Shown piece by piece: positions 14,870 to 35,990 of a stretch of 64,000 nt of DNA. Source of the DNA: Phorcus lineatus (taxonomy: Eukaryota > Mollusca > Gastropoda > Trochida > Trochidae). The notes under the pieces were generated by a model, which did no database searches, was not told the DNA's origin, and was given only the letters and a program-made list of their open reading frames with translations. The position numbers and the translations under genes were made by a program. The stretch is from the NCBI GenBank assembly GCA_921293015.1, contig OV121086.1, forward strand, positions 33,417,194 to 33,481,193. The letters run 5' to 3'. The stretch's first letter is position 1. Every line of letters starts with the position of its first letter.

Positions 14870-15123
14870 TCAGTTTCTTGTGCTTTTGAAAGTATTCCAA
14901 CAAATATAACTCAGAGTTTTTAAAACGCTACACAATAGTTCACGATCTGGGTTTTGCTTATCTTGTTGAATAGATTGAATTTTTGTTTTTTTAACTTTAA
15001 AAAAAAACCTCTGCCACGTTACCAAGAACAACACAATGACGTAAACCAAAAGGCTGACAATGAAAAAGGTGCCTGTTGTGCTTATCAGCCTCACTTCCCA
15101 AAAGTTGTTTTTCAATCTTGGAT
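14870..15123 (-). pseudogene. Coding relic Q0: membrane-spanning exon, unknown family
   Basis: On the minus strand the frame from the exon-like start at 15123 (preceded by AG) reads DPRLKNNFWEVRLIS, then the hydrophobic segment GTFFIVSLLVYVIVLFLVTW, then a basic QRFFFKVKKTK stop-transfer stretch, and stays open to 14870. This is a textbook single-pass membrane helix with a cytoplasmic basic edge. Four other copies of the block (15430-15538, 17575-17680, 20990-21098 minus; 35869-35980 plus) read related peptides at the same place, with frame slips. This is the least damaged copy. No donor or downstream exon is identified, so whether it is a living exon or a relic is open. The protein family is not recognised. 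Confidence 0.5.
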
Positions 15124-15429
15124 CTGGTTTTTAATGACCTTGATAAGGGTTTGTTTATCAACACGTAACAAAGTATTTAATAGCATAAATTCATGACATT
15201 GATCAACTATCTTTAGTTCAAAATGTTCAGAAATTAAGAGTGCCTGTTTATTAACCCATGTTTCCTAATGTGTTTTATAAGTTTTCCTCTATCATATTCT
15301 ATTTTAGGAGTTTCATTCACTCCGAATTAGCGTTTTCTGGTTATCAAAAAAGTAATGCAATACTTTTTATACCGATTCATTTTTTTTAAAAATACAAAAC
15401 GTTTTGCTGATCCTTTAATTCGACTGCTA

Positions 15430-15816
15430 AAACTCTCGAACACCAAGAACAAACCAATGACGTAAACCAAAACAAATGACAAAGGTTCCGATGATGTTTA
15501 TCAACGTACCTTCTCCAAGGTTGTTTCCAATCTGGGATCTACTTTTTAATAACCTTGACAAGGGGTCTGTTTATTTCACCTGCAGTTTACCTTATTACAG
15601 CTTGCTTTTCACATGAGAGACGTTTTCACAGGAAGATTTAGCAAAAATATTCACACAGTATAATTGGTTTAGGTGCAAAACAACATGAAGAGAAAAAAAC
15701 GAATTTGCTTTGTCATTGGTATGTGTCTGAATGTTTTTACCTGAACTTCTTAAAAGCATTTCTGACTGCTTCTTGTCTGCTAAAAGTCGGAATCGGGGGA
15801 AATAAATAAAGACATC
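15430..15816 (-). pseudogene. Coding relic S+Q, block A (two exons, 202-bp intron)
   Basis: On the minus strand an exon-like segment (15816-15741) contains D-V-F-I-Y-F-P-D-S-D once a one-base insertion is allowed, and ends before GTAAAAAC. A GT..AG interval of 202 bp (15740-15539) follows. A second exon-like segment starts ATCCCAGATTGG, reading DPRLETTLEKV and, after frame slips, a hydrophobic GTFVICF..VYVIGLFLVF stretch. The same donor, short intron and acceptor recur in block B (174 bp) and in the inverted copy (177 bp). In block B the first exon reads DSFIHVSDSEMYERRRK. Conserved splice signals at matching positions argue for a real ancestral gene encoding a membrane protein. This copy is frame-damaged. 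Family unknown. Confidence 0.5.
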
Positions 15817-16285
15817 ATTGAAAATTAGATTTTTGAAAAGTGTCATTTTGACTTTAGGTTATATTTATGAAAGTAAATCTTCTCAATCATATATTGAATA
15901 AAAACATATATTTATGCATGGTTAATGTTTGGATAATGATGCAGGCATTTACTTCAGTTTTATATTGATTTCATAATGAAAACAGTCAATATGGGAGCAG
16001 TGTGTTAGAGTTTCTTTTCTTTAATTGCAATATGAAAATAATCTCGTAGAACAAATTGATTTTGTAGGATAAATCACACACAGAATTGACATAATGATTG
16101 TTGTTCTGGCTGTTGTTTATGAGTTTTATAAGCCCATATGAAATGTTGTACTGAAATAAACATCACATGCCAGCGTGTCTGTAGTAACGTATACCATATT
16201 AATATGTAATGTTTGTCTCTCGTTTCTTTACGATATATCGCCGTCTTCTAACCTGGAGATGTGATTAGTCTGCTTCTACTACAAG

Positions 16286-16604
16286 TAGTGAGGTGAGGTG
16301 AGTTGGTGTTTAACGCCGCTTTCAAGATTATTTCACTTATATCGCGACTGCTAGTATTATTGCAGGGAGAAAGCCCGCAACACCATTGTGGCTATGCATT
16401 GCAGTGAAACATGCGAGCATCGGCTGGAACTAGCGAACCATGGGTGGTACTGCGCTGAATTTCAGTGTAGCATTGCACCCAAACCTGACTGCGTGTAGAA
16501 CAGTTCTCTACTGCAGACAAAGTTGCCGAGCCCCTGGCGGGATTCGAACCACGGACCTTCTGATCTGAAGCCGAACGCGCTAACCACTGCGCTATCCCGC
16601 CCCC
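16286..16604 (-). mobile_element. tRNA-derived SINE, full length
   Basis: Read on the minus strand the element starts with a tRNA-like head, GGCGGGATAGCGCAGTGGTT, with an A-box region and a perfect B box GGTTCGAATCCCGCC. A body follows, and the 3' end is CCTCACCTCACTAC-like. An imperfect 11-bp target duplication flanks it (TCTACTACAAG at 16275-16285; TCTACCACAGG at 16605-16615). Paralogous blocks B (about 18285) and C (about 22215) carry the empty site, reading TTTTACCACA without the insertion. The insertion therefore postdates the block duplication. The same family occurs full length at 60581-60898 and truncated at 58314-58438. Confidence 0.92.
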
Positions 16605-32864: not shown

Positions 32865-33116
32865 CCCAGTTGTTACGTTATATGAAATAAAACTCATTTG
32901 ATATTCTAAATATGTTATCGTCTGTCTGTAGATTTGGTTCATTTCAGTAGTCCGAACATTTCACTGTCCGAACGTTTTTGATGAAAAACGGAAGTGTTCG
33001 GATTATCGAGGTCTAACTGTAGTCCACACAAGATGAGATAAGAAGAAATGAGATACATGATGTGAATCATTATATATAGATAAGTAAACCGCATATGCAA
33101 TATATCCAATAATATA

Positions 33117-33590
33117 CAATTATAGACTGGTGATGAGGTCAATACCTGTTTTTATAGACCCGAGGAAAGCAATATTGACAGAGGACGAAGTCCGAGGTCA
33201 ATATTGCTTTCCTCGGGTCTATAAAAACAGGTATTGACCGAATTCACCAGTCCATAATTGTTTTATTATGTTTCGAATTAAATACGAAAAGAAAAGAAAA
33301 AACGACGGTCATGAACAGCAATTTGGATTAATTGTTCAACATGACTGTCAAATGACGTCACGATAACAATAGCATGACGTCATGTAACAACGGTTTGACG
33401 TCATTATGTCTATATCAAGTCAATATCACTTTTGGTCGGACTCGGAGTGAAGTCAATATGCTTTTCTGTCGACTGACACGTGACAGCTTCTCCACCAATC
33501 GGATTACCGGAAAAATAAGCTTGCATAATAACATCATCTGTAACCCTTATACAGATGTCAAAAATTTTATTTAAACTACTAACAACGTAT
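33117..33590. mobile_element. Palindromic MITE with near-perfect hairpin and three TGACGTCA sites
   Basis: 33138-33179 and 33197-33238 are perfect 42-bp inverted repeats separated by 17 bp. The arms extend imperfectly to 33117 and 33262 (ACTGGTGA / TCACCAGT). To the right lie three TGACGTCA octamers (33353-33360, 33375-33382, 33396-33403) and a GTCGGACTCGGAGTGAAGTC segment, to about 33450. The right boundary is uncertain. The frame 33374-33574 is inside it and not credible. It shares the phrase AACAACGGTTTGACGTCA / AACAATGGTTTGATGACGTC with the element at 48.5 kb. Confidence 0.75.
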
Positions 33591-35639
33591 GTTCTTCAAA
33601 TATTAAAGTTGCTGAAATATTGCCCAAGAGGCGTTTAAACAAATAGCGGGTTCTTTTCCGGAAACTAAACATTCCATCTTTAACACCCACAAAATTTCAA
33701 CACTTTTAAAAGCTTCGTTACATTGCTGCACTTACATCCAGTGCAGTGTCTTATATATGGTACACTACATCAACTTCAAGTCAACCGCAAAATAAAGCAG
33801 TATCATTTTACCAACGATCCTTTTCGTTTTCGTCCCTCATTCAATTGTATTTCTTCTTCGTCGCATATATAAAACATAGCACAATAGTCTCATTCAGGCA
33901 ACACCATGAAAAAGCAATTATCTCATGACAATATTATGTTGTTTTCAAATGCAACTCATCACTTGCCGTGCACAGAATAACGGCGCTATTTGATGTAAAA
34001 TGAAACCCATTCATGACGTATTATCATCGTAATGCAAAATAGACACCTTACTGTTCTGTGAAAAGAAGAGTTTTTTCAGGACTGAATTTCCCTTATGCCA
34101 AGATAAAACTCATGAATAAACATTTTTTTCATGTCTTATACGACATGCCAATTTCTCAGATGAAAATAATACTGTAATTACACAGACAGCAAACCAACTC
34201 TCATCATTCTCGCGTATGGATAAATCTGAAGGACACTACCATGGCTTTTCGTTTTATCAGAAACTTGATATACATGTGGTTGTCGAAAGTGTAGACTGTT
34301 TATTCTGTTTATTCTTGATCAGCTGACATGCTTACAGCATAACCTACATTTCGTCACAATAACTGCTAGGGATATTTCATTCAAATAAATGTCTTTTTTA
34401 TATAATTTATAATTTATAGCTTGTGACTTCCTGATCTTTGAATCTAATGCAAGCACTTTATTTGTTGGAATTTACTTAAATTCTTTTGATAGTTGATGGT
34501 GCCAAAAGTTAAAGCACGATGTGAACTTGGTTTTATTCCACAATAAATATACCTTTTCATTAAATAAACGCAACACTTCTATACCGAGAGTTTATGATTT
34601 CTACACATCATCTGCTTCATTCTGTTCCACATAGTGGCTAGTAATAATGTGAGTTATGGATCTTAACTTTATTTGTTTATTGTGCATAACTTGCGTGTGG
34701 CAGTAGTTGATAGTCATCTCAGAATTAAAACAACGTTACAATACACAAGAGGTAAAAGTCAGCCATGACATTAAAACAAAGGTAATAATGACATTTATAA
34801 TGATCATAATTATAACAGATCAGTTTTATAGCGCCCTTTTTCTAACAGAGGCTGCTCAATAGCGCAAATCAAAGGTATATGCAATTATCTAAATTCTGAT
34901 CAAATCTATCTGATAGCAAGAGCCACCGGGCAGAGAAAAAAATATGGTATTATACGTTAAGAAATATCCATTTAAAAAGTAGCAAAGCTGGTTTGTTTAT
35001 ATCGATTTAAGCTGTAAAAACATACCACAATGAATTGTGGAGTAATGCAACATTGTGAAAGTTTTGAAAGGTTACTTTTGGCGTTATTATTGATTATAGG
35101 ATTAGTGAATAAACAATTTGGTCACATCATGACATTTCTATTTTGAACATCATAAGATTCAATTCCGATATCCCATCATGACTTAGATTTGACAACCTTG
35201 TGGTTCTAGAAACAAGAAGCCTTTAAAGTGATCTGATTACGTTGCAGAAAAGAGCACCATGTCAAATGACTAACTGTATAGCAAGTAAAGACGGCTCTAT
35301 GATGTTTTCGAAATAGAAAATTTGGAAATAGATTTGGGAATCAGAAAACAATCTGTCATGCATGCTGACAAATGGACAAAACTGCAGGACTTCTGGTATT
35401 TTTTAAATTACGAAGAACTTGTCTGACCCTCTGAACTTGGTAATGTATATCAAACCAGCAATTAGTATATTGTAAGTATTTCAATAAACATGTAAAGTTT
35501 CATATCTTACAAAAGCAACTATTATTATTTGAAAAACATAGATTTTAGTGATATAAGCGTAATTAGATTAAGTTCTCCGATGTTCTGCAATAATCGTAAG
35601 AAAATAATATAAAAAAATTCTAAAAGTGTAAAAAAAATT
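33591..35639. other. AT-rich DNA without recognised genes
   Basis: A short TTTTATAGCGCCCTTTTTCTAA-like stretch near 34825 recalls common invertebrate repeats but is too small to classify. Nothing else seen. Confidence 0.45.
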
Positions 35640-35990
35640 CAAAGAGTCAGAGATGATCAAAACGCGGTCGTTTCCCAGATGGTTATAATAGGTAAAAGAA
35701 ATTTTATAAATCACAATGCTAACATTTTTCTTGATACATGTCATGCTAATCTATATAAACTCGCTGTTTTCCCTACTAAATCTTCCTTTGAGAAGGCATG
35801 TTATGTACAGTGAAGCTGTAATTAGGGACAAAGGTTGTTAACAATTGGAATACTTCATGAAAAAGTAGATCCCGGATTGGAAACAAACTCCGGGACGGGA
35901 TGTTGATTGAGATCAAAAGGAACGTTTTTATTGTCAGTTATCTACTTTACGTCAATGTGTTGTCCTTGGTTACGTTGTAAAGTTTATTTA
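35640..35990 (+). pseudogene. Coding relic S+Q, block D (two exons, 177-bp intron)
   Basis: The S exon reads SEMIKTRSFPRWL, then stops, ending at 35691 before GTAAAAG. The intron is 35692-35868, ending AAAAGTAG. The Q exon starts ATCCCGGATTGG, reading DPGLETNSGTGC, a stop, and, after a frame slip, RNVFIVSYLLYVNVLSLVTL. The last peptide aligns with GTFFIVSLLVYVIVLFLVTW of relic Q0. Splice sites line up with blocks A and B although the coding frame is ruined, as expected for an old pseudogene copy. Confidence 0.5.

Follow-up and report, generated by a model that had tools for sequence, protein, structure and literature searches.

A probable cluster of old, decayed local duplications in a 67-kb stretch of the Phorcus lineatus genome

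We examined a stretch of 64,000 nucleotides (the window) on contig C11 of the 957.8-Mb, 74-contig genome of the gastropod Phorcus lineatus, in which a preliminary description had singled out five blocks, here called A to E, as decayed copies of one exon of a membrane protein. The 100 kb on either side of the window was also taken in, so that 264 kb was searched locally; window-relative coordinates that are negative or lie beyond 64,000 refer to flanking DNA of the same contig. The window is AT-rich (about 30-39% G+C per 2-kb step), and holds short interspersed elements (SINEs) and other repeats. From comparison of their sequences, the blocks probably belong to an old, decayed cluster of local duplications that is confined to a 67-kb stretch of the chromosome.

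Five blocks homologous as DNA

The blocks are made up as follows, with the proposed exons and intron named in quotation marks.

Block A, 14993 to 15160, minus strand: 'exon 2' patch (ATCC start at 15123) with 37 bp of upstream homology; 77% identical to B, 74% to C and E.
Block B, 15421 to 15830, minus strand: 'exon 1', 202-bp GT..AG 'intron' at 15740-15539, 'exon 2'.
Block C, 17588 to 17960, minus strand: 'exon 1', 174-bp 'intron' at 17854-17681, 'exon 2'.
Block D, 'exon 2' patch, 20975 to 21118, minus strand: weak when taken alone (E 0.003-6e-4).
Block D, 'intron' patch, 21579 to 21647, minus strand: like B at 15601-15671, 76% identical over 71 bp (E 9e-8).
Block E, 35640 to 35997, plus strand: 'exon 1', 177-bp 'intron' at 35692-35868, 'exon 2'.

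Comparison of the window with itself bore out the recurrence of one sequence in these places. Block A matched B at 77% identity over 139 bp (E 2e-21), E at 74% over 146 bp (E 8e-15) and C at 74% over 109 bp (E 2e-9), while B matched E at 73% over 115 bp (E 2e-9) and C at 64.5% over 772 bp (E 8e-34); the pair C-E gave no match in this comparison. A, B, C and E are thus homologous as DNA. The case for D is weaker, with matches to A at E 0.003-0.004 only, and to B over 35 bp (E 6e-4) in addition to the 71 bp of 'intron'. These two patches of D are colinear with B, with an inverted-repeat element of 436 bp (21126-21561) lying between them, and it is the colinear patch at 21579-21647, together with a further patch of homology downstream (R3, below), that supports the membership of D. 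The preliminary description therefore picked out true, ancient homologues that inspection of any single copy would overlook.

The sequence marks on which it had relied are largely present. The three GT..AG spacings were found just as described (202, 174 and 177 bp), and AG precedes the start of the block in all five copies. The start motif ATCC(C/A)AG, given for every copy, holds unchanged in A, B and C and is one base off in each of the others (ATCACAG in D, ATCCCGG in E). Because homology runs across the entire stretch, the conserved-looking GT..AG boundaries reflect that homology rather than demonstrated splicing.

The longer unit and its distribution in the genome

Homology extends well past the proposed exons. 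B and C can be aligned over about 1 kb, through the entire 'intron' and some 0.65-0.7 kb upstream, between 16876 and 15472 in B (not counting a SINE of 317 bp) and between 18600 and 17621 in C. Downstream of the blocks lie further patches, R3, R4 and R5, which with the upstream stretches form a longer unit.

Upstream continuation of unit B, 15831 to 16876, minus strand: homologous to the upstream stretch of C; a SINE lies inside at 16288-16604.
Upstream continuation of unit C, 17961 to 18600, minus strand: from the B-C alignment.
R3 downstream of A, 13270 to 13412, minus strand: 79% identical to the R3 of D over 128 bp.
R3 downstream of D, 18890 to 19066, minus strand: contains a 53-codon open stretch.
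R3 downstream of E, 37168 to 37330, plus strand: frame closes with TAG.
R4, 37681 to 37812, plus strand: 77% identical over 133 bp to window-relative 79669-79542.
R5a, 38029 to 38179, plus strand: 78% identical over 153 bp to window-relative 79495-79346.
R5b, 39173 to 39259, plus strand: 76% identical over 89 bp; R5 resumed beyond a mariner-like insertion.

R3 sits 1.5, 1.8 and 1.2 kb downstream of A, D and E, respectively, and on the strand of the block in all three cases. Two further copies of R3 lie about 80 kb from the start of the window (window-relative 79844-80022 and 80276-80393), and in both of these, as in the copy of E, the R3 frame is ended by TAG at the same codon. R3, R4 and R5 follow each other in the same order in the E unit and in the +80 kb unit. 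R5 is uninterrupted in its +79 kb copy, where R5a and R5b are contiguous, and is split by the mariner-like element in E. A profile search found no block near the +80 kb copies of R3, its one match (E 5.1) being of the kind expected by chance. The +79 kb copy of R5 lies in a 98-codon open stretch (window-relative 79262-79500, minus strand) that has a hydrophobic run and several cysteines.

To place these copies in the genome, whole-genome searches were made with the DNA of B, A, C, E and R3 and with the peptides of A, R3 and R5. At the sensitivity available, matches were restricted to one locus, C11:33430-33497 kb, a span of 67 kb; the R5 peptide was found at two places only, the E unit and the +79 kb unit. 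Within the 264 kb, blastn found no further copies of the block. Two unrelated repeats of the window served as positive controls. The SINE gave at least 2147 candidates in the genome, with 40 scored matches over many contigs, and the terminal inverted repeat (TIR) element that splits D gave 2609 candidates over many contigs, with long matches that, among those listed, were mostly 73-79% identical. The matches of the TIR element measured about 240-310 bp, longer than the block, which makes this control easier to find than the block. The searches were also of limited sensitivity, that with A missing C, D and E and that with E missing A, C and D; because known copies were overlooked, distant copies of the block may exist elsewhere, which tells against strict confinement to the locus.

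These results bear on whether the blocks are the remains of an old transposable element that inserted here several times. Copies on both strands, identities of 60-80% and surroundings rich in mobile elements would suit such an origin. However, the searches of the 957.8 Mb found no copies elsewhere, whereas the TIR element, equally diverged and taken from this window, yielded its thousands of candidates; none lay in the 100 kb on either side by blastn, and the ends of the blocks showed neither terminal repeats nor a transposase. A single locus against 2147 and 2609 candidates makes a dispersed transposon unlikely, and we regard this explanation as highly improbable. The preliminary description, which had named copies of a non-coding transposon among the findings that would overturn it, is upheld on this point.

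The copies instead lie within one locus and their flanking homology is colinear, as local duplication would have it, and we infer that they arose in place, through tandem or segmental duplication. The ancestral segment would have been several kb long and would have comprised, on one strand, an upstream stretch, 'exon 1', 'intron' and 'exon 2', and then R3, R4 and R5. It would have been multiplied several times inside the 67-kb stretch, and its copies would then have decayed by substitution, by small insertions and deletions, and by the insertion of mobile elements: the SINE in B, the inverted-repeat element in D and the mariner-like element in E. Duplicated segments of this sort that have since decayed into pseudogenes share this appearance of clustered copies with their patches in the same order, with frameshifts and mobile-element insertions and no copies elsewhere. 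The present locus differs in that neither an intact nor an annotated parent gene turned up here, and for that reason pseudogene cluster is not a certain label.

Coding tests of the block and the downstream patches

One hydrophobic exon had been described as common to all five blocks. In A and E the hydrophobic stretch reads without a stop; in each of the other three copies it is either cut by deletions or stops or lacks the hydrophobic character. A carries one extra base near its start that is absent from the other four copies, and these therefore begin in a different frame from the one that is hydrophobic in A. The best 19-residue mean hydrophobicity in A is 2.62, and 5 of the 529 open stretches of at least 41 codons in the window are as hydrophobic. 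The hydrophobic stretch of A is unusual but not unique; T-rich DNA reads hydrophobic in one frame.

Coding was assessed from mismatches by codon position and by shuffling of alignment columns. The control set held 13 comparisons, nine of them repeats without apparent relation to the unit and four of them parts of the unit; for controls the best of six frames is quoted. The nine repeats gave p values of 0.010, 0.0285, 0.029, 0.041, 0.0615, 0.0685, 0.0795, 0.0905 and 0.0945. Mismatches at the three codon positions were flat both between A and B (5/30, 5/35, 5/31) and between A and E (10/42, 10/44, 11/42). With all five copies, frame +1 of 'exon 2', which is the hydrophobic frame once the extra base of A is set aside, leaned towards coding, with p 0.039 and most change at third positions (43.5% versus 31%). 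Yet the overlapping frame +0 scored equally well (p 0.036), and this value was equalled or beaten by three of the nine controls. The non-exonic stretch upstream in B and C reached p 0.016 (far upstream, 0.166), and the best values for 'exon 1' and the 'intron' were 0.10 and 0.097. The ten block pairs taken singly gave conflicting best frames: the hydrophobic frame was best in A-B (p 0.148), B-C (p 0.089) and D-E, and frame +0 in B-D (p 0.003) and B-E (p 0.0145). Between B and C, identity was 65.2% in 'exon 1', 78.9% in the 'intron' and 61.4% in 'exon 2'. 'Exon 1' was less conserved than the 'intron' in all three pairs compared, and 'exon 2' was clearly above it in B-E only. Judged from these alignments, the coding evidence for the block is weak, and we infer that, since the duplications, the block has evolved in its several copies under no protein constraint that can be detected.

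Several results weigh against this view of the block. Sequences from an order-2 Markov model held on average 1.3 stretches as hydrophobic as that of A, fewer than the window holds. Stops are scarce in 'exon 2', with 3 against 12.6 expected in frame +1 (p 0.015) and 2 against 13.1 in frame +0 (p 0.004), and one frame of 'exon 1' has none against 4.5 expected (p 0.017). The hydrophobic frame of D-E, 19 codons long, scored better than all 2000 shuffles. Finally, neutrality is not uniform, since 'exon 2' stands above the 'intron' in B-E ('exon 1' 50.9%, 'intron' 59.8%, 'exon 2' 66.7%) and level with it in C-E (56.5%, 57.7% and 58.1%).

The downstream patches behaved differently from one another. 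R3 gave p 0.003 in one frame over the full patch, with change of 25.7, 20.3 and 30.6% at positions 1, 2 and 3, and p 0.001 over its 70 gap-free columns, as one of 24 frame tests; R5a gave p 0.0035. None of the nine controls was as low. R4 had no coding signal (best p 0.11). The R3 test was the more powerful because it drew on five sequences, against two in seven of the nine controls. On these alignments R3 and R5a are better candidates for former coding exons than the hydrophobic block is.

It is on R3 and R5a that a second explanation, close to that of the preliminary description, chiefly draws, by which the locus is a decayed multi-exon gene cluster, 'exon 2' having encoded a hydrophobic segment (a membrane span or signal peptide) and R3 and R5 having been short cysteine-containing exons. 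Their codon signatures, their placement in the strand and order of the blocks, the TAG codon shared by three copies of R3, and the p value, few stops and third-position changes of 'exon 2' in frame +1 all speak for it. The control range and the upstream B-C value within which 'exon 2' falls, the equal score of frame +0 and the greater power of the R3 test speak against it, as does the open 'exon 1' frame of B, which, read from the sequence, reaches the junction in a different phase from C and E. Whole-genome searches with the A, R3 and R5 peptides, moreover, returned no intact relative, and no family match was found. We consider such a cluster possible but unlikely. Its fuller form, a graveyard of a lineage-specific family without known domain, built of the hydrophobic exon and the short cysteine-containing exons and with no intact member detectable in the genome, is in our estimation a shade more doubtful. 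Of the ancestral multi-exon gene for a single-pass membrane protein that had been proposed, the copies stand as real, ancient and decayed; their reading as exons of such a protein is conjectural.

We thus return to an old local duplication cluster, whose ancestral segment was possibly a small lineage-specific gene. If the locus is only an old local duplication, it represents ordinary genome decay, and it carries the caution that in T-rich DNA non-coding homologous copies show conserved GT..AG boundaries and frames that can be read as hydrophobic. Should R3 and R5 prove former exons, the death of an entire lineage-specific gene family could be traced at a single locus.

Family searches and neighbouring elements

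Searches of Pfam, NCBIfam and PDB sequences gave no credible match for the peptides of the unit. The sole Pfam match of the A peptide, ECSCR (PF15820; E 0.12, 12.7 bits against a curated cut-off of 27), was a hydrophobic match of the kind that arises by chance; we take the name to be that of a single-pass membrane protein. Also below threshold were Spore_YabQ for the 98-residue stretch that holds R5 (E 0.1) and FieF (E 0.023, with 13.7 bits where the cut-off is 447). Pfam lent no support to a suspected likeness between the R3 peptide and von Willebrand D domains. There were 115 stop-free stretches of at least 90 codons in the 264 kb, and the domain scan covered four, all from the window. Rfam returned nothing at gathering scores in the window, with one chance-level match (E 0.93) in 18500-21300, where a small-RNA reading of R3 had been entertained; ARAGORN, run with bacterial settings, called no tRNA; and a literature search of limited depth found nothing relevant.

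Mobile elements and other repeats of the window include the following.

16288 to 16604, 60582 to 60898 and, in part, 58314 to 58436: SINE, presumably tRNA-type by its look; copies 96-98% identical.
21126 to 21561: TIR element of 436 bp in unit D, with 71-bp inverted ends at 77% identity.
38177 to 39175: mariner-like element inside R5 (Transposase_1, E 5.6e-14), with 42-bp inverted ends at 38177-38218 and 39134-39175.
47875 to 48459 and 48869 to 49452: direct repeat of 585 bp, 95.7% identical, about 1 kb apart; either a recent duplication or the two ends of one element.
46967 to 47543, 31059 to 31569, 10660 to 11284 and 52311 to 52546: tandem arrays or pairs, the last consisting of two 118-bp copies at 99%.

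The nearest likely gene that we noticed is an open stretch in the flanking DNA, window-relative -41467 to -41111 on the minus strand, which we take to resemble the N-terminal dimerisation part of a type II regulatory subunit of PKA.

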